Source of the DNA: Glutinoglossum americanum | Lineage: Eukaryota > Ascomycota > Geoglossomycetes > Geoglossales > Geoglossaceae | NCBI GenBank assembly: GCA_020080175.1 | Contig: JAGHQL010000270.1 | Span: forward strand, 1-21,190 | Reading direction: 5' to 3' | Length of the DNA stretch: 21,190 bases | Part shown: piece after piece, positions 1,069-21,190 of the stretch | How positions within the stretch are numbered: position 1 is the stretch's first letter | How the letters are laid out: every line of letters begins with the position of its first letter | The notes under the pieces: model-generated | Databases searched by the model: none | Told to the model about the DNA's origin: nothing | What the model saw: only the letters and a program-made list of their open reading frames with translations | Program-made: the position numbers and the translations under genes

Positions 1069-4000
1069 TTATAGTGCCTTTCGTTTGCGGGTGGTTTCGC
1101 TGCGTTGGTAACTATCCATTATCCAGTCGGGCGACGCTGTATTGATGTCGATGATTCCCATCGGGGGTCGAAACCCCTGTTTAGAGGCCTCAATAGGTCC
1201 TCCGTTGAAGGGCTTAGAGGGTACTTCCCACCATGTGTGAATTTCTTGCCAGACCTCTGGAGATATTGAATCCGCTCTACTAGCTCTCAGGAATTCCACA
1301 AGTCTCGCAAGGGCCACTCTCAACAAAAAAACGAATTGTTGCAATCTCGTTATATGCTGGATTCCCCGGACAGCGTTCGAAATCTGGCCTCCGCATGCCT
1401 GGCAAACTATCCGGTCGTCCCCAACTACCCATCTTGATTCTTCAAGATTTCCCCCCAGGTTACGAAGGCAGTCACTGCAATTGAAGCAACCGAGATGCCA
1501 TCGCCTATCACCCAAGCGGGAGCATTCGTCCTCGATTAGGCGATTACATTGTGAGCAAAGGTCAGAGTTCGCATCTGCAAGCGCAGAAACGCTGCCAGTC
1601 AAATCTGAGGTCCCTGTTCCCTTCGGGGGACTTAGATCACTCAAGAGATCCAAAAGTTGATTTAGAACTTCCATATTGGCTCTCTCGCGTTCCAATCTGA
1701 GTCCTCCTCGAAGGCTTATCTTCAACAGCGACTTCAGGGAATGAGCCAGGCCTGTCACCAGCGACCGCAACTCCTCTGTAACTCCCAGCTTTCTTACTCC
1801 TGTGTCTTGTGTCTTTGGCAGCAACGAGAAGAGAGCCACCATTGTCTTGCAAAGAAGCTTGGCTTCTCGAGGAGAGGATAACCCCGCTGTCACCGGTTAA
1901 GTTAGCCTGATGTGACATGAAGAGAAGTCGATTCGTAAGTTACTGACCTATCATGCCTTCTGATATCATCAAAGCATCTAACTTGTCTATGGAGGTGAAT
2001 AGGATATTCACGTACCAGATGAACTCTTTGGCACAAAGTGCACCGCCAACATAAGCTCCATCACGAGCATAAAGAATCATATCTGAGATGCAAGCCGCGG
2101 ATGATTCTTCAAAAGTTGAAAGGATACCCCAAGCGCGATAGGTTTTTTCTTCCATCCTCTCCTCCCTCTCTCGAAGCGCTTCGCGCTCTTCATCTGCTGC
2201 ATCAACACCGCCCTGTGGAGCATAGTTTCCAGTAGTGCTGGATGGTGCAAACCGGACATTCCAGAATTTATGGATCATATAACACTCAGGGTGCCAGATC
2301 TGGGTCTGCCCATTGCGAACGATATCTACAAACTGCTTTAGTATGGCACTCTGGCACCCATTGCATCTTTGCGCAAACTGAGTGGAATAGTGGTAGTGGC
2401 AATAAACATTTCCCTCATGTTCGTAATAGCGATCCTGCGCGCCGAAAATTGTATGGCAAATCGAACATTTGAAGTGTTCCATATGGTATTTTCGATCCAG
2501 TGCTGTGATGTAGGAGTCGCGGAGAGCCCCGCCACACAAAAAGCATAGAAGATCTAGGCGGCGGAAAAAGTCAACTTCGCAGAGGGGATATTGTCCATTA
2601 CCTTCCTCGTCGTCAATGGGAAAGAAACGCGAGGCCACAAGTAGATCACAGTCCTACAAAATTGGTTAGGTCTAAAAGCCCGTGGGTCAACGCTCCGACA
2701 CGGCTTACTTTGCACGTGAAGCATTCTAGGTGGAAATTTCCCCCCAGTGCTCTAACAAATTGCCCTGATATTGTCCCACCGCATTTCTTGCATAGTCGGC
2801 GCCATTGTTGGCTCGAACAGGTGGCCCCAGGTGTAGGACTATTTAATTGGTCAGTAGCCCTTGGCTGAGAGCGGCCAAACCGGAAGAGATTCTCGATTGG
2901 AATGTTGCGGCTATCGTTGACATGTGGGACGAGTCGTGTCGCTAGAGCCGCACCAGCAGATTCCGCGGTGGGGCTTGGCTCATTATGAAGGAGAATGAGC
3001 TGCGCTGCTTGAGTTGTGTCAGCAGAATCCTGATTGGCGAGGCCTATGTTACTCCCACGAAGAGAAGGTTGTATGGCCTGAACCGAATCAACAGCAGGAT
3101 ACTGAGTAGAGTTTCGCCCATCCTTAGGAAGTTCGAACCGCGTTGATTGAACCGCATCAGTAGCTGGATCAAATTCCAGGTCAACAAGGCCTTGCTGGTC
3201 TTTAGGAAGTTCGAGCCGCGTTGATTGAACCACATAAGTAGCTGGATCAAATTCCAGGTCAACAAGGCCTTGCTGGTCTTTAGAAAGATTAAACTGCGTT
3301 GCTCGAGCCGCATCAACGGCTGGAACAAAATCCCATGCGACGAGGCCCCTCTCATCATTGCGAGGACTGGTCTGTGTTGCCCGAACGGTGTCTACGACTG
3401 ACGTAGACCCCCGAGCGACGAGACTATCCTCGTACCCATGAAGACCAGGCTGGACTACTTGAACCGTGGTTTCAGCGCGCGAGCCCCTAGCACCAGGGTT
3501 CTCCATCTTTCGCATCAAGGCTTGTCTGTAGGCACGAGAATTGATAAGAACATCATCAAACTCAAAAGATGTTTCCGACAAAGCTGACTCGGTGTCGTTG
3601 AGAACAGCACCCGTATTCGAAGAGCTGAGCGCAGATCCCGAGACCAAGCTTGGGGGCATCTTCCCCCGTGATGTTCGGGCCCGTGACAATATGAGCTTCA
3701 AAGAGCCGTGGTTTTTCTTGAGAAGATCTTGTGTTTCCAATTCGTTTTTACTATGAAGGGTCAGAGGATAAGCCTTGATAGTGTGCAATACATAAGGTGA
3801 GATTCTTCACATAAAGACCGAACAACATACTTTCGTAGGACAGTTAAGAGCAGGGTTATGGAAGACTGATGCCCCCGCAATTGCTGAAGCAGCTCTTTCA
3901 TTTCTGACTCATTCCACATGAGTTTCGCTTTTGCCATCCGGCTCGCCGGAGCCATGTCCAACACCTCCTTATTTGCTGCAAGTTCCATAATATACTCGTT

Positions 4001-4264
4001 CAATACCGAAAGGGTCAACGTGCAGCCCACGATAACCGTCTCAAAGGCATTAGCAATGTGAGGGTCCAATGAACCCGAGTTGCCGACCACGAGACTTTGC
4101 AAGTAGGATAAAGACGCGCTCACGGCGACGCACTCTGTAGATATGGAACTGATGGTGAGTGAGGCAGCTTTGTGTATGCCATATGCGCCTTGGGCTATCT
4201 GGACGATCTTCGCACACCCCACCACTAGCGACGTGATTGATGCTATCATGCTGACGGGATCCAT
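1069..4264 (-). CDS. LRG1-like triple-LIM protein without RhoGAP, with STAND-type N-terminal domain
   Basis: Hand model: exons 4264-3831, 3750-2709, 2653-1948 and 1886-1069, giving 999 residues. The introns (80, 55 and 61 bp) have donors GTATGT, GTAAGC and GTCAGT and phases that match. Residues 1 to about 165 start MDPVSMIASITSLVVG and resemble the N-terminal domain found on many fungal NACHT/ankyrin STAND proteins (PF17111-like). Residues about 240-410 are degenerate tandem repeats. LIM1 begins near 465 (CKKCGG) and LIM2 near 529 (CFLCGG, then YCHYHY). A following segment contains AILKQFVDI and HPECYMIHKFW, and LIM3 begins near 838 (CSQC). The order and wording of the LIM half match the fungal Rho1 GTPase-activating protein Lrg1. 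In Lrg1 a RhoGAP domain follows LIM3; here the protein ends about 160 residues after the start of LIM3, with a basic KRKAL tail and no RhoGAP sequence. It is probably a paralogue that lost its catalytic domain and now acts as a binding protein; that role is inference. The start has A at -3. Confidence 0.82.
2985..3480 (-). repeat. Degenerate 78-bp (26-residue) tandem repeat inside the LIM gene
   Basis: On the plus strand equivalent positions recur at 3131, 3209, 3287, 3365 and 3443, exactly 78 bp apart. Weaker units of altered length lie to the left, around 3065 and 2990. The two central copies encode KDQQGLVDLEFDPAT almost identically and outer copies diverge progressively. The unit is a multiple of three, so copy changes keep the frame. 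The encoded linker lies between the N-terminal domain and LIM1 and looks disordered. Confidence 0.85.
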
Positions 4265-4728
4265 ATTGGCGATGACCGAACCTAGGTTTCTCCAAGAGGA
4301 CTTTCTAATGCCTTACGAGGATATATAGCTGGAATACTGGTGATTGCACGATCGCCCTCGCGCTGTGAAGGGTGAGGCTTGAAAATGCGTGCGAGGCTGA
4401 GCCTTGCACCGCCTCCTGGCAAATCTTATGGGTCTAGAACAAATTCTAGCCCTAGCAGATGTTGCTTGCCGGCCAAGGCTGAAGCCCGCATACTTCTGAA
4501 ATCCATAAAGCCAGCGTTGCTGGTTTGTGTGCTGTACCCCCGACAATCATGGACTCGGCGAGAGGGTTGAGGTTCGCCTTCAGAGTCCCGACACCGCCTG
4601 ATGACCATAGTGATCTCAGGCTTTTGTGGGTGGGCTCAGATAGCTCTTCGCTCTAGCGTTTTGATACCGTCTGCCTTCAAGTGATAAGCAGTGCCGAGCG
4701 ACTGTTAGAAAGGATGATGTACAATATA
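4265..4728. promoter_or_regulatory. Upstream region of the LIM gene
   Basis: This stretch of about 460 bp between the LIM gene start and the MITE has no supported gene; the short open frames on both strands have no recognisable domain. It should contain the promoter and leader of the minus-strand LIM gene. No clear TATA box or known operator was identified. Confidence 0.45.
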
Positions 4729-5035
4729 TGGAGGCTCACACCAAAAGTTTTGATACTCGGAGTTAGGCCTCGCTTAGGCGTCGCCCCACCGAAACTCCAG
4801 TCTCTAGATTGAAACCTAACTCAATAGCGATTCTTTTATTGCGAAAAATTGTAGTTTTAGAAAGGGTAGTGCATTCTGTAATTTTAGCTACCAGGATGCC
4901 TTGCTCAGGAAGTGCAAGTACTTGCACAAGGAGGGTAGTTGGCATCGAGCGACCGGGCATTTTGGTGTGGTATGCTGGGGTGTCGCTTAGCCAAAATTTA
5001 GTTAAAGGTGTCGGGACTTTTGGTGTGAGCCTCCG
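4729..5035. mobile_element. MITE with about 61-bp terminal inverted repeats and TA target duplications
   Basis: The outer 19 bp of the left end (4730-4748, starting GGAGGCTCACACC) is perfectly inverted at 5016-5034. Both ends are flanked by TA (4727-4728 and 5036-5037), the target duplication of Tc1/mariner-type elements. The inverted repeat continues without gaps for another 42 bp (4749-4790 against 4974-5015) at about 50% identity, and 16 of the 21 mismatches are transitions. The 307-bp element has no transposase and so would be non-autonomous, mobilised in trans. It lies in the gap between the LIM gene and TAM41. A family name would need other copies in the genome. Confidence 0.82.
4912..4927. 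other. Perfect 16-bp palindrome inside the MITE
   Basis: GTGCAAGT is followed directly by its complement ACTTGCAC, near the middle of the element. It could extrude as a small cruciform or be a dimer-binding site; nothing else identifies its role. Confidence 0.8.
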
Positions 5036-6045
5036 TACATGGGGGGCAAACGACCCACCACGAAAAATATCAGTTCACATCAACAAAAGCCCCACGTTCA
5101 CATTTTGAGCATAATGCTCAATTCTTTAGTTTCACTAACAAGTTAGGGAATTTTAGTTGGCACCCACACCTCTCTTGTGAAGGCTCAGTGGCGCCCAGGA
5201 GCAAAGACTTACCCTTACCCCCCAATGCACACATGCGCCTACGAGCGGTTTGATGATCAAAATACTTCTGCTCCACCTGGGCCTAATTGTGCCGTGACTT
5301 CTTCCATATTAATCAAGAAAAAAGGCGGACTAGAGTTTCTTCCCCCAAGGATACATACATACACGGCAATTTCTCGTATACGCGTTATGGCTTAACAGTA
5401 AACCGCACGGGCGGGTAGGGTGGTGGGGGAACAAGGGATTTAGGGATTTAATCTTTGGTGTGCTTGGGCGTGCTATTGGGGATATTTTAAATCATTAATT
5501 ATTTAGGCAGGTAAATGATCTGTAGTTTGCCGTCCCGTAGGAGTTACTTTATCCCTTGGTGAAGGAGTGAGATATCTGGGTTATTGTGTAAGTCACGTTG
5601 GTGGAGAGGATTTTTTATGTATTTTGTTAGTTTTCCTCCGTTTATCTATCCTTCATTCGTTTAGTCTAGGAAACGTATCGAGTATCAAAGTATTTCATTC
5701 CATTCTATTGAATCTCATCCTAAATCCTAACCAACATATATGCCTATGCCCTTACCCCGTTTGGTTTTTTTTAAATTGGTAGAAAAATGCTTCTAGAAAC
5801 GCCTCATTTCCTTGAAATACTCCCTTTTCTGTATTTGACCCGCCTGTCTTGGTTTTTGGCAGGGGGGTTTCGTGATAATGTTGGACAAAAGAAAAGCTTT
5901 GTTGGGTTGTTCGACCATTTGGTGGCGGTTACCAAAAGAGGAGAAAAATGCTGAGGACGTGCCAATTGCATGGGATCATGCAGATGCTCGAGAAAGAAAA
6001 AAGCTATACAGTATAGAAGAGGCCGGATGGGATGTGCACACAAGC
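5036..6045. other. AT-rich intergenic region, no gene seen
   Basis: This stretch of about 1 kb separates the MITE from the TAM41 stop codon at 6046. Open frames on either strand are short and have no recognisable domain. A perfect 17-bp palindrome lies at 5105-5121, and 5450-5800 is markedly AT-rich. The right end should include the TAM41 3' untranslated region. Part of it may be old transposon debris, but no second pair of ends was found. Confidence 0.5.
5105..5121. other. Perfect 17-bp palindrome
   Basis: TTGAGCAT and ATGCTCAA flank a central A. It sits about 70 bp right of the MITE in gene-free DNA. Possible hairpin or dimer-binding site; function unknown. Confidence 0.75.
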
Positions 6046-8033: not shown

Positions 8034-11000
8034 ATGAAGATGTCTTTACCGGAGGGCGTTCATACGCATGCTGGCCGGTTGGCCTCCTTCTCTATCAGCT
8101 ATCGGCTCCCACGCAAGAGTCGAGCTTCATCTGCGAATTCCAAGTCGCAAATTCTATTGGCTTGGCCCCATCAGCGGCCCTCGCCTGAGCAGGTACATCT
8201 ATCCTGAGATATAGCATTTGGAAATATGCTTCTAATATCCACTGTAGCTCGCGCAAGCCGGGTTCTACTATCGCCCTTCTCAAGAAAGCCCCGATAGCGT
8301 AGAATGCTTCCTTTGCCGTAAAGGCCTCGATGGATGGGAAGAAGATGATAACCCAATTGAGGAACATCTGAAACATTCTGCGGACTGCGGATGGGCGGTC
8401 AACACGTGTATCGAGCAGAAGTCTGAGGAACAAAAACGCGACGACAATGGGGACCATCTAAGCGAGAGAATGATGGCTGCGAGGAGGGTAACATTTGCGG
8501 ATAGATGGCCTCATGAGGGTAAGAAGGGGTGGTTGTGTAAGATTACGAAGGTATACCGTTGGCCCTCCTACTCAAGGACGTATTAATTCATAGGGTGCGA
8601 AATTGACCTTGCTCTTTTTAGATGGTAGAGGCAGGCTGGTATTATTGCCCAACCCCGGATTCGGACGACTTTGTTTCTTGCGCGTACTGTGGTCTTTCTC
8701 TGGACGGATGGGAGCCAAAGGATAATCCCATGTAGGTTGTGAGCTAAACCTTCTTCTACTCTAGCCTATTAACCCGACCTCTCCCGCAGGGAAGAGCACC
8801 AGCGCCGCTCTCCAATGTGTCCCTTTTTCACAACAGCAACCCTGCCGGCGATTAATGGTAAACCAACAAAAGCGAAGAAAGGCCGTGCATCGAAACTTTC
8901 ACTTGCGTCTACTCAGTCAGCAAACTGGACAACATTTTCTGCAAATTCCTCATTCGCGGAGGTTTTGGTCGAGGAGGGAGATAGTATAATGAGTACAGCG
9001 ACACGGCTAGCTGCCAAAGGCAAGAAGTCAGCTGCGGCTAAGGGCAGGAGTAGAACAAAAAAGAATGAGCCGGCTGAGCTAAGCAGTTTCGTTGAACCTG
9101 AGGACGACTCATTTGATGTTAAGGTGCCGGAGAAACCCATGAGGACGACGCGTGGGAAAAAGAGAACAAGCGCAGAGATGGATGCAGATGAACGTGGGAA
9201 CGAGAGACAAGGTTCTGTAGATACGGTCACCGAAGTTCCACCTGCAAAGAGGAGGACAAGGACAAGGAGCAGCTTGGCTCAAGTCCAGAGTTTTCCTGTC
9301 ACTGCACCTGCCAAGGCCCCGGGGGAAGAAGTTGTGATGCTCGATGCCGATGAGGTAGTTCCTGCGGCAACGAAAAAGGGTGGTAAAGGTAGAAAAACTA
9401 GAAATTCTACTGCGAAGCTTAGGGGACGCAAGACATCAGCAGCCTCAACCGCCTCGATGGCATCTATGAGGATGGAGATAGATATTCCCGATGACGACGA
9501 AATCGATCGGGCTCTAGAGGCGGACCTGGACCGTCCCTTGACCGATGATGAAGCAGAAAATATCGAAGTCGAAGAGGTGCCGAAGAGGAGACGATTGACT
9601 AGGAGTCGAGTTCCCTCGGCAAAGGCAGCTACCACTGTAAGAAAGGCTTCTAGAGCAAACAAGATGGTTGTTAGGGATGTTGAAATGGGTGAAGCAGCCG
9701 ACGCTATGGCGAACCACGTTCAGCCTGAACCTGAAATCCCCCAGCCAAGTGTAACGGCACCAAAAGGGAAACAGACGCGAAAAGCTTCGGCGAAACAAAA
9801 ACCTGGACCTCGCAGCAAGCCAAATGTTGCGGAACAAACCCACTCAAGACCGCAAGCCAGCCTATTGGAGGAAGCCCAATCACTGGAACGGGCCGACGAA
9901 CCATCGCTGCTTAATTCCTCTATCCTCGGAGATGTTGCTTCCCCCCCTCCTATTACACGCCCGAAACGGGCTGCTAGCCGTAAACCTTCACGCCAGGTGG
10001 AGAAGCGTGGCACCAGAGCTAGCGCTATGTCAGCGGCTGACAGCCATATCTTACCAAGTTCCGAAACCGGTCAACCTGCGCTCGACGAAGAGAGTAACTC
10101 GGGTGACGAATCAGCTGACAGCATGGCGAGCCAGGCAACCGTGCGTAGGGGAGGGCCTAAGCAGCAGGGTGCTGCAGGGAAGAGGGGGAGAGGTGTAAAG
10201 AATAATGTGATGGGTAGCAAGCATATTGAGGACGTTGTGCAAAAACGCGTTGAAGCAGCTGCAGAACAAAAGAAGGACGAGGTAATGGAGGAGGGGAAGC
10301 CAAAGCGGGGGAAGAAAGGGAACATGAATGTTAACTCGCAAAAAGCCGGGGACTTGCAAATTGACATGGACGTGGATGGGAGAACAGAAGCAGCGGTGCG
10401 AGCTGTTAAACCCTTGCCAGACATTCCACCTGCCAAGGCAACCAAGGCCAAAGGCGGTCGCAAGGCGATGGCTGCCGAAAAAACGGCTTCCACTATGCCA
10501 AACGAAGTTGCGGGGGGAGAAACTGCTGTGACAGTCCTAGCAGGGGGTGAACCGGCTCTCGGGTTTGCTGCACCTGCTCAACTTCCCCAATCCAAAGCCG
10601 TCAAAGAGAAGATAAGTGCTGCGAAAGCTACCCCTTCCTCTCCCGAAACGATTTCCGTGCTCCCCGTCGGTGGGCACCGGGAGGAGCACCAACAGGCCAC
10701 TCCTGATCCATCCAACGCCTCGGATGCTGAGAACCAGCCCCCATCTTCACGACCTTCCGCTTCGACCCCTTTCCGAGCGTACACAGCTCGAATTCCTCTT
10801 GCGGCCAGCACGCCTACGGCGTCTTCGCCATCCAAGCGCAACGTCGTTACAGGATTGCAGACATCGCTTCCTTGGACCACCATTGATCTAGAGGCTGTAT
10901 TTTTGCCTTCGCCTACATCACCGTCAATAAGACGAGGCGGCGATGAGGATGCGGATAAAGAAAATAGGGGCGTAGGGGTGTCTGTGACAGATGCGATGAA

Positions 11001-17513: not shown

Positions 17514-18103
17514 GGTGGTGTCGGAAGCCAATTCTCTTGTTCTTTTCTTCTTGGACTTTTGCGGTGGTGTTTTGATGGTCGTTGATGTTGCTGATTGGTT
17601 GATGGAAGGTCCCGCTGGCGAGGAGCCTCTATGTAACGCGGTGAAGTGGGGATGTATGTTGCACCGCGGACTAGCTTACTTACCTTCGCGAAAACGGAAA
17701 CTTAAGAATATTTGTAGAAGTAAATTCCTGGAATACCACAATTTCGATATCTGCCCAACTGCCTCTCAATGCTGCCCCTTCTACCTATTTTCATTTCTGA
17801 TGGCATAACTATATTTACGGGAGTCCCTCCGGCCTCCGGGAGCATACCTGTAACTACGCCCGAAGGTAAGTTGTGCAGCCTTGACGCAGCCTTGCGTAGC
17901 CCCGCTCCACCTGACTTGCACATAGCGTTTTTTACATCTCCAAGTCGAAACCGTCACAACCAGACAGATCAGTTTGCATGATTCGCTTCGTCATCTAGTA
18001 TGCGGCATCGTCCCTATTAGGGACGGGGGACGATTACTTTGCTCTGCTACAAGCCTTGGCTCCACTCAAGACCAGCGCACCGAAACTCGGTACCTGTCCC
18101 ACC
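17514..18103. promoter_or_regulatory. Divergent intergenic region, SNU23 / NLR gene
   Basis: These 590 bp between outward-facing starts hold no supported gene. The left part should be the SNU23 promoter and the right part that of the NLR. A perfect 17-bp palindrome lies at 18009-18025, 78 bp before the NLR ATG. No clear TATA box was found. Confidence 0.55.
18009..18025. promoter_or_regulatory. Perfect 17-bp palindrome upstream of the NLR gene
   Basis: CGTCCCTA and TAGGGACG flank a central T. Position and symmetry suit a dimeric transcription factor site or a leader hairpin; no factor is recognised. Confidence 0.55.
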
Positions 18104-21100
18104 ATGGCGGGAGCCATTGCGGCAATCAACCTTGCGACCTCTATCGTCAAGTTTGTCGATATCAGCGCTAAGGCGCTAGCTCGTCTCCGCGAATTCCATT
18201 CAACAGCCCAAGAGACGCCTAGAGTCTTTCAAGATATCACAACGCAATTGCCTCTCATCATCGACATCATGACGCGGATCGAGAAATGTCGCGAAGGCGG
18301 TTCTCTAACGACAGATGCACAGCATGCACTATCGAATGTAGTGGAGGGGTGTCTCAGGCAGGTCATTATGCTCGATAGGCTAATCGACAAGATGTTACCC
18401 ACCTCGACTGACTCCCCACTGCGACGGGCCCGGAAGGCAATTGCAAGCGTTCTTAAAGAGAAGGATATTGCGGTAATACAAAGGACCCTGGAAACATACA
18501 AATCAACACTCACGCTTCACTTCAGTCAGAGATCTGGAGCTTCGATCACCAACGCTGCAGGGGAAAGCACTTATTACGAAATCCCATCGTTACAAGTTTC
18601 TCAATTTATTGAGCGGGTAGGGCTACTGGGGGAGATCGAGGCAAGCTTCGCCAACACCGCAGAAAATTCATCTGGTCCGAAAGTTGTCGTACTATTGGGT
18701 ATGGGTGGCCAAGGGAAGACACAGCTTGCCCTTAAGTACTGTCGAGTAGCAAAGATGTCTGGGAGATTTCAAGCAATCTTCTGGATTGACGCGTCATCTA
18801 CAAACACTGTCTCTAGTGGTTTTGATACTATCGCTGCGAAGATCTCCAGTACAGAACGAGTGTTTGACGACATTGAGTCGAAGATAACCTTTGTCAAAGA
18901 GACACTGGAGAGGTGGCGAAACCCATGGCTCATAGTGTTTGACAACTATGACAAGCCGAGTGACTTCAGGAACATCATGACATATCTTCCCCAAACAGAA
19001 ACCGGCGCCATACTTTTCACTAGTCGACATGCCGATTCCGAACGCCTTGGCGTCACTATTAGGGTCACGCGAATGACAGAGCATGAAGGCCTAGAGCTTC
19101 TCCTGCGCCAATCCAAGCTGGAAATAAGTGACGACAATACCATGGAAGGAAGGAAGGTTATTCAAAAGCTCGGCTACCTACCTCTCGCTATAGATCAAGC
19201 AGGTGCATATATCAATGCTCGTAAGCTTCCACTTCGGCTCTTTGCAGAGCATTATGACCAGAGAAAAGATGTTGTGTTAAGACATACTCCATCGCTATGG
19301 GAGTATCGAAGAAGGCTTGGCGAAGACAAAGACGAAACGTTGCTGAGCGTGTTTACAACATGGGAGTTGTCGTTTCAGCAAATTGGTAAAAATGAGGATG
19401 AAAAAGCCATGATCGGCCACTTTCTTACGCTTTCTGCATTCTTGGATAGTACAAACGTTGGTGAAGACCTATTCAAATCACATTTCACCTGGACTGGTAA
19501 GCCTCCGCAATGGGTGGAACATTTCCTTTCCAGAGGCATGTGGGATAAATACAAGTACCAGGACACTATCGTGGACTTACTGAGCTTGTCACTTCTGCAA
19601 ACTGTGGATATTGGGAGTGCGGAGTCACATTTCTCGCTGCATCCTCTCATCACAGATTGGTTGAAGTTGCGAACAGATCAGAAGGGTCGTCAAGAGTACA
19701 CCATAGAAGCGACGATGGTCCTGACAAACTACATTGATGCACTAGATCAAGACACGTTACCGTTGCAGATCAAATTGGATGCACTATCTCATGTTGATGT
19801 GTGCCTCCAGAATGATAGGGAATATTTGCAGGAATTGGATGAATCAGATATTGCATCTCTATGGGGACCCGAATCTACCTTTGCGTTACTCTACCAGAAC
19901 TACTGTCGATACCAAGAGGCAGAGGAGTTGTACCAGCGAACACTGAGGGGAAAGGAGAAGGCCCTAGGGACGGATCACACGTCGACGCTGAACACAGTCA
20001 ACGGCCTCGGTATCCTCTATAGGGAGCAGGGCAGGCTTACGGAGTCGGAGGCCATGTACGAGCGAGCACTAGCGGGGCGGGAGAAGATGCTAGGACCAGA
20101 CCACACGTCGACGTTGAACACGGTCAACAGCCTCGGCCTCCTCTACTATCACCAGGACAGGCCGGTAGAGGCGGAGGCTATGTACGAGCGAGCACTGACG
20201 GGGTACGAGAAGGCGTTGGGACCAGACCACATGTCAACACTGGACACGGTTAACAACTTGGGCATCCTCTACTCTGACCGGGACAGGCTTGCGGAGGCGG
20301 AGGCCATGTGCGATCGAGCACTGGCGGGGTGCGAGAAGGCGCTAGGGCCAGACCACACGTCGACGCTGGACACGGTCCACAACCTCGGCACACTCTATAG
20401 GAAGCAGGACAGGCTTACGGAGGCGATGGCTATGTACCAACGAGCACTAGCGGGGTGCGAGAAGGTGCTAGGACCAGATCACGCGTCGACGCTCCTCACG
20501 GTCCACTCTTTGGGCAACCTCTATAGTGACCAGGGCATGCTCGCGGAGGCGGAGGCCATGTACCAGCGAGCACTAGTGGGGTGTGGGAAGGCGCTAGGGC
20601 CGAACCACACGTTAACGCTAAGCACGGCCCACAACCTAGGCCTCCTCTACTATAACCAGGGCAGGCTTGCGGAGGCGGAGGCCATGTACGAGCGAGCACT
20701 GGCGGGGTACAAGAAGGCGCTTGGGCCAGACCACGCGTCGACGCTGAGCACGGTTAACAACCTGGGCGTCCTCTACTCTGACCAGGGCAGGCTTGCGGAG
20801 GCGGAGGCCATGTACGAGCGAGCACTGGCGGGGAGGGAGAAGGCGCTTGGGCCAGACCACACGTCGACGCTGGACACGGTTAACAACCTGGGCGTCCTCT
20901 ACTCTGACCAGGGCAGGCTTGCGGAGGCGGAGGCCATGTACGAGCGAGCACTGGCGGGGAAGGAGAAGGCGCTTGGGCCAGACCACATGTCGACGCTGGA
21001 CACGGTTAACAACCTGGGCAACCTCTACTCTAAGCAGGGCAGGCTTGCGGAGGCGGAGGCCATGTACGAACGAGCACTGGCGGGGAAGGAGAAGGTGCTT

Positions 21101-21190
21101 GGGCCAGACCACACGTCGACGCTGAGCACGGTTAACAACCTGGGCGTCCTCTACTCTGACCAGGGCAGGCTTGCGGAGGCGGAGGCCATG
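18104..21190 (+). CDS. NLR-like STAND receptor: SesA-like N-terminus, NB-ARC, TPR array (partial)
   Basis: An uninterrupted frame of 1,029 codons runs off the window; the C-terminus is missing. The start CACCATGGC is an excellent initiation context. Residues 1 to about 140 are helical (LREFHSTAQETPRVFQDITTQLP, later VVEGC and RTLETYKSTL) and resemble the SesA/NACHT-associated N-terminal domain of fungal NLRs (PF17107-like). The NB-ARC ATPase shows the P-loop GMGGQGKT (199-206), Walker B LIVFDNYD (Asp280), the sensor-like GAILFTSRH, LPLA (359-362) and, after the winged-helix part, HPLITDW (near 513) in the place of the MHD motif. From about residue 598 tetratricopeptide repeats of the kinesin-light-chain type follow, 42 residues each. 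In fungi such proteins act in non-self recognition and regulated cell death: the repeats sense, the ATPase oligomerises and the N-terminus signals. That role is inferred from the family. Confidence 0.93.
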   Translation, partial: MAGAIAAINLATSIVKFVDISAKALARLREFHSTAQETPRVFQDITTQLPLIIDIMTRIEKCREGGSLTTDAQHALSNVVEGCLRQVIMLDRLIDKMLPTSTDSPLRRARKAIASVLKEKDIAVIQRTLETYKSTLTLHFSQRSGASITNAAGESTYYEIPSLQVSQFIERVGLLGEIEASFANTAENSSGPKVVVLLGMGGQGKTQLALKYCRVAKMSGRFQAIFWIDASSTNTVSSGFDTIAAKISSTERVFDDIESKITFVKETLERWRNPWLIVFDNYDKPSDFRNIMTYLPQTETGAILFTSRHADSERLGVTIRVTRMTEHEGLELLLRQSKLEISDDNTMEGRKVIQKLGYLPLAIDQAGAYINARKLPLRLFAEHYDQRKDVVLRHTPSLWEYRRRLGEDKDETLLSVFTTWELSFQQIGKNEDEKAMIGHFLTLSAFLDSTNVGEDLFKSHFTWTGKPPQWVEHFLSRGMWDKYKYQDTIVDLLSLSLLQTVDIGSAESHFSLHPLITDWLKLRTDQKGRQEYTIEATMVLTNYIDALDQDTLPLQIKLDALSHVDVCLQNDREYLQELDESDIASLWGPESTFALLYQNYCRYQEAEELYQRTLRGKEKALGTDHTSTLNTVNGLGILYREQGRLTESEAMYERALAGREKMLGPDHTSTLNTVNSLGLLYYHQDRPVEAEAMYERALTGYEKALGPDHMSTLDTVNNLGILYSDRDRLAEAEAMCDRALAGCEKALGPDHTSTLDTVHNLGTLYRKQDRLTEAMAMYQRALAGCEKVLGPDHASTLLTVHSLGNLYSDQGMLAEAEAMYQRALVGCGKALGPNHTLTLSTAHNLGLLYYNQGRLAEAEAMYERALAGYKKALGPDHASTLSTVNNLGVLYSDQGRLAEAEAMYERALAGREKALGPDHTSTLDTVNNLGVLYSDQGRLAEAEAMYERALAGKEKALGPDHMSTLDTVNNLGNLYSKQGRLAEAEAMYERALAGKEKVLGPDHTSTLSTVNNLGVLYSDQGRLAEAEAM
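19928..21190 (+). repeat. 126-bp tandem array encoding 42-residue TPR units (at least 10 units)
   Basis: The codon that begins each MYERALAG segment occurs at 19928, 20054, 20180, 20306, 20432, 20558, 20684, 20810, 20936, 21062 and 21188, always exactly 126 bp apart. That gives ten complete units, and the array continues past the edge. Left units are older and more divergent; the last four differ from their neighbours at only 6-9 of 126 bases. The consensus is ERALAG-x-EKALGPDHTSTL, then TVNNLG-x-LYSDQGRLAEAEAM. Confidence 0.96.

Follow-up and report, generated by a model that had tools for sequence, protein, structure and literature searches.

A LIM-array gene model without a RhoGAP match and with a probable HeLo-like N-terminal domain in Glutinoglossum americanum

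Introduction

The gene on the minus strand at 1069-4264 of contig JAGHQL010000270.1 of Glutinoglossum americanum raises the question of whether LIM domains of the kind found in the Rho1-GAP Lrg1 can be part of a protein that has no RhoGAP domain and begins with a domain known from fungal STAND/NLR-type proteins. Such a layout had been proposed in a sequence-only reading of the window, i.e., the whole stretch of 21,190 nucleotides analysed here. The analysis supports one gene model that combines a LIM array lacking RhoGAP with a probable STAND-type N-terminal helical domain. The layout is plausibly a domain shuffle and is not yet an established new system.

Structure of the gene

The LIM-array gene (1069..4264, minus strand) consists of four exons, 4264-3831, 3750-2709, 2653-1948 and 1886-1069, running from a start ATG at 4264 to a stop codon ending at 1069. 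Translation of the spliced model yields 999 codons and a stop, with no internal stop. The three minus-strand introns are of the GT-AG type, and each contains CTGAC or CTAAC. Intron 1 (3830-3751, 80 nt) begins with GTATGT, contains CTGAC and ends with CATAG, while intron 2 (2708-2654, 55 nt) and intron 3 (1947-1887, 61 nt) begin with GTAAGC and GTCAGT, respectively, and both end with AG. Splicing of intron 1 joins the N-terminal exon to the linker, and its retention terminates the frame at 3761, after ~167 residues. The open frame and the small GT-AG introns bear out the spliced 999-residue protein proposed earlier, and the four-exon structure is largely real.

Codon usage supports coding of the 999-codon model weakly. 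The in-frame codon scores are 0.138 for exon 1, 0.107 for most of exon 2, 0.033 for exon 3 and -0.034 for exon 4. In the last two exons the coding frame does not score better than the out-of-frame alternatives (the +1 frame of exon 3 reaches 0.055), and one frame of a non-coding stretch downstream of the gene reaches 0.099.

LIM domains and the C-terminal end

The Pfam LIM profile (PF00412) matched four stretches of the spliced protein with 107.1 bits (E 5.4e-31; cut-off 22.9), and the LIM assignment of the sequence-only reading thus holds for the 999-residue model. Zinc-ligand patterns resolve these stretches, all on the minus strand, into three complete LIM domains and one half domain. LIM 1 (2570..2792; residues 465-520, interrupted by intron 2), LIM 2 (2390..2545; residues 529-580) and LIM 4 (1393..1557; residues 838-892) each combine a Pfam LIM match with a complete ligand pattern, whereas LIM 3 (2282..2365; residues 589-616), the second Pfam LIM stretch of exon 3, displays a half pattern corresponding to the first zinc module only. 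When the LIM half was searched against PDB sequences, 31 distinct sequences were found at E up to 0.01, with paxillin and PINCH (LIMS1) at the top. The closest solved relative is paxillin isoform alpha (E 3.3e-22), which covers LIM 2 and the half module, yet the domain order of paxillin-type proteins is not that of the 999-residue protein. A search of exons 3 and 4 against NCBIfam returned only two matches, far under the cut-off (E 0.14 and 0.51), and a structure model of exon 3 was set aside at a pLDDT of 37.9.

The LIM half is provisionally assigned to the LRG1 type, and not to that of Rga1, Pax1 or Ldp1, from an assumed likeness at the residue level, which makes descent of the array from LRG1 putative. 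In the Lrg1 layout, RhoGAP would continue from the position of the present C-terminal tail (1069..1278, minus strand); residues 892-999 had no Pfam match with E of 10 or less. Pfam searches were run to E 10, although HMMER filters discard most matches above ~0.1. At this setting, no RhoGAP (PF00620) was found in the full 999-residue protein or in any of eight further sequences, comprising five pieces of the protein and the three minus-strand frames of 1-1068. A RhoGAP remnant downstream of the gene was likewise dismissed, as these three frames gave no Pfam match with E of 10 or less; the search in this direction covered 1-1068 and was limited by the first base of the window. The earlier claim that the protein ends where RhoGAP is expected is supported within the stretch examined, and the RhoGAP exon below 1069 that could have overturned it was not found in the minus-strand frames of 1-1068. 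Within the stretch of the window examined, the spliced protein has LIM domains but no RhoGAP match.

Several LIM domains are shared with Lrg1, whose N-terminal LIM domains and RhoGAP domain are described in excerpts of PMC3914944. However, the 999-residue protein differs in having no RhoGAP match and in carrying ~460 residues, made up of the helical domain and the linker, ahead of the first LIM domain, which begins at residue 465 of 999. A protein of this kind might be the organism's sole LRG1 in a shortened form. This is extremely unlikely, since loss of LRG1 strongly lowers hyphal growth in M. oryzae (PMC3914944, excerpts) and a sole copy without GAP would presumably be costly.

Loss of RhoGAP and gain of a STAND domain, as the sequence-only reading put it, is a proposed direction of change. 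No relatives of two pieces of the LIM half were found in viral_contigs and genome_contigs, collections that are viral and prokaryotic and hence say little about fungi; the four scans gave 4, 1, 54 and 31 pattern matches, of which tblastn confirmed none.

The probable N-terminal helical domain

The N-terminus carries a probable HeLo-like domain (3714..4264, minus strand; residues 1-157, across intron 1), recognised as a sub-threshold match to PF17111, a profile listed as PigL_N and named Helo_like_N in the excerpted text of PMC9815663. The match starts at residue 1 with profile position 1 and spans the profile end to end over residues 1-157. It scored 17.5 bits (E 0.0028) with residues 1-172, 16.3 bits with residues 1-231, 14.9 bits with exon 1 alone and 10.5 bits (E 0.4) when the whole protein was used; the curated cut-off of 27.2 bits was not reached in any form tried. 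The unspliced ORF at 3761-4312 had no Pfam match with E of 1 or less. PF17111 was not matched by any of ten controls of the N-terminus (one reversal and nine shuffles). Two of these controls did hit other families, with E of 0.04 and 0.097, an indication of what can arise by chance near the level of the PF17111 match. An NLR-type protein encoded in the same window, with an N-terminus that passes the SesA cut-off, likewise scored just 16.9 bits for PF17111, and BLASTP aligned the two N-termini weakly (18/76 identical, E 0.031).

AlphaFold2, run without relatives, predicted four helices in exon 1 (residues 3-29, 38-61, 68-104 and 119-143) at a mean pLDDT of 71.1, the remaining four models ranging from 58.6 to 65.2. 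Foldseek found no PDB match to the exon 1 model at E 0.001 or better, and known HeLo or MLKL structures were absent from the 50 matches listed. Two entries named v22WRAP-T and v13WRAP-T, matched by residues 1-172 in the PDB sequence search (E 5e-09 and 2.8e-08), had no individually passing stretches and were rejected as composition or chance, as was a helicase at E 0.29. PADLOC gave no match for residues 1-172.

Taken as a divergent HeLo-like domain, which is probable from the profile match and the predicted helices, the N-terminus would resemble the PF17111 domains of fungal NLR systems in its sub-threshold match from residue 1 and its four predicted helices. It differs from them in staying under the family cut-off and in being joined to LIM domains instead of NACHT or NB-ARC and, apparently, instead of a known amyloid motif. 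The earlier claim of a STAND/NLR-type N-terminal domain is thus upheld in part, by the end-to-end match and the absence of PF17111 from all ten controls, while at 17.5 bits the match stays below the 27.2 that family membership calls for. The label "immune-type" leans on this sub-threshold match.

Plants encode NLRs with a C-terminal LIM domain, such as CHS3/DAR4. These share with the present case a LIM domain on a protein considered immune-type, but this is analogy only. The 999-residue protein has no NLR core: at E up to 10, Pfam matched LIM and the sub-cut-off PF17111 in the full protein, and neither NACHT nor NB-ARC. An NLR with an integrated decoy was therefore rejected as a description of this protein. 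According to excerpts of PMC4986451, the N-terminal domains of fungal NLRs, HeLo-like ones included, can differ even where the NOD domains are very much alike. HeLo and HeLo-like domains are described in PMC12881547 as targeting membranes and causing cell death.

The linker and the probable join of exons 1 and 2

Just after the helical domain lies the stretch SFEFDDVLINSRAYRQAL (3516-3569, minus strand). Stretches like it may occur in other fungal proteins with an N-terminus of this kind.

Between the helical half and the LIM half, the linker contains a tandem repeat (3121..3354, minus strand) of three in-frame copies of 78 nt, or 26 residues, in which identity to the reference copy is 95% for one of the other two and 68% for the second. 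Residue autocorrelation of the linker at lag 26 exceeded that of all 500 shuffles, also after removal of one copy. Two of the copies are nearly identical, which suggests that the linker grew recently and in frame. The repeat unit of 26 residues differs in length from the HET-s motif, which has 21 residues according to the abstract of PMC4518210. The linker gave one match in the PDB sequence search, at E 0.34.

The join of exon 1 to exon 2 is probable, and it is here that the layout could fall apart into two adjacent genes fused in the model, i.e., a helical-domain gene of ~167 residues that starts at 4264 and stops at 3761, and next to it a LIM gene beginning in exon 2. The unspliced frame does stay open to 3761, and past the junction the LIM part has its first in-frame Met at residue 176 (near 3659). 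HeLo-like (PF17111) proteins are moreover known from genes adjoining NLR genes, as described in the excerpts of PMC9815663, and codon scores near the junction are not clearly apart from the non-coding control. However, merely 80 nt separate the two parts, and these carry GTATGT, CTGAC and CATAG. Adding the start of exon 2 raised the PF17111 score from 14.9 to 17.5 bits and moved the end of the match from residue 141 to residue 157, which mildly favours the join. The 29 codons preceding the first Met of exon 2 also scored best in frame, at 0.169, with the remaining forward frames at 0.098 and -0.057, a weak indication given the few codons. Third-position GC argues in the same direction. Exon 1 had appeared as a compositional island (88/144 versus 408/856; z 2.99), yet codons 44-187, which span the junction, are equally high (0.611, the same as exon 1), so the compositional shift is not located at the exon boundary. 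Fusion of two genes is accordingly unlikely.

Proposed function and alternatives

The reading we favour, at a rough probability of 0.45, is an intact gene for a GAP-less LIM adaptor, composed of a probable HeLo-like four-helix domain, a grown linker and a putatively LRG1-type LIM array. The array comprises the three complete domains and the half domain with a helical-looking spacer, and the linker has been enlarged through tandem duplication of the 26-residue unit. The adaptor would be recruited through its LIM domains to sites of Lrg1 action such as hyphal tips and septal pores, where the helical domain may self-associate or contact the membrane, so that the adaptor would mark or tune tip and septal sites with no hydrolysis of Rho1-GTP.

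The proposed recruitment touches on a conflict in published work over the sufficiency of LIM domains for such placement. In N. crassa, the three LIM domains of Lrg1 bring it to tips and septa (cited in PMC3914944). In M. oryzae, by contrast, deletion of LIM2 or RhoGAP abolished septal-pore localisation of Lrg1, whereas removing LIM1 had an effect on localisation alone and LIM3 was not required (PMC3914944, excerpts). Since septal-pore localisation needs RhoGAP in the latter species, a LIM array without GAP may fail to localise.

Instead of an intact adaptor gene, the locus could be drifting as a relic without selected function, made up of an unrelated exon followed by a partial duplicate of LRG1. 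The weak codon preference of exons 3 and 4 and the recent repeat growth in the linker fit this possibility, as does an inverted-repeat element (4724-5040) ~460 bp upstream of the ATG. The element has 25-nt arms at 4724-4748 and 5016-5040 that are 92% complementary and 267 nt apart, and a second arm pair at 4569-4595 with 5007-5033. Its RIP ratios are 1.16 and 1.09, its ORF at 4763-5074 had no Pfam match with E of 0.01 or less, and we take it to resemble a small non-autonomous Tc1/mariner-type element. However, 999 codons without a stop or frameshift speak against a relic, and the three complete and one half LIM ligand patterns, still intact, make gene decay improbable. A relic therefore has a low probability.

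Decoy, sensor and dominant-negative roles, raised by the sequence-only reading, are speculation. Acting as a dominant negative or a sensor in Rho1 signalling, the protein might compete with the true Lrg1 for LIM partners, with disturbance freeing the helical domain. The presence of LIM domains with no RhoGAP match would suit such a role, as would the localisation conferred by LIM domains in N. crassa (cited in PMC3914944, excerpts), but no nucleotide-binding domain was matched, and we consider this quite improbable. It could further be speculated that a membrane-active HeLo-like domain under the spatial control of LRG1-type LIM domains acts as an executor anchored at septal pores or tips without an NLR core. 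If so, cell death or plugging would be confined to one hyphal compartment, although we regard this as highly improbable.

Should the layout of the GAP-less adaptor hold in other fungi, helical domains from fungal non-self recognition would be tied to the cell-wall machinery of Rho1. Shuffling of such domains would then extend beyond NLRs to scaffolds of the cytoskeleton or of polarity. In the literature searched, none of five peptide strings occurred and no paper combined "LIM domain" with "heterokaryon incompatibility". Among the listed titles and abstract starts there was no LIM protein with a HeLo-like domain; PMC4901127, a paper on homeodomains, holds both "LIM domain" and "helo".

Surroundings in the window

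The gene content of the window looks fungal. Six of ten further ORFs had a Pfam match with E of 0.01 or less, namely Tam41, BIR, TP_methylase (twice), TFIID-18kDa and a C2H2 zinc finger. The NLR-type gene (17999-21190, plus strand) lies ~13.7 kb away from the LIM-array gene, encodes SesA, NB-ARC and TPR repeats, and continues past the end of the window; it contains a 126-nt repeat unit in 9.8 copies with 83% matches. The BIR domain (8248-8586, plus strand) scored 72.3 bits, and as its match begins at profile position 23, this ORF is probably one exon within a larger gene.
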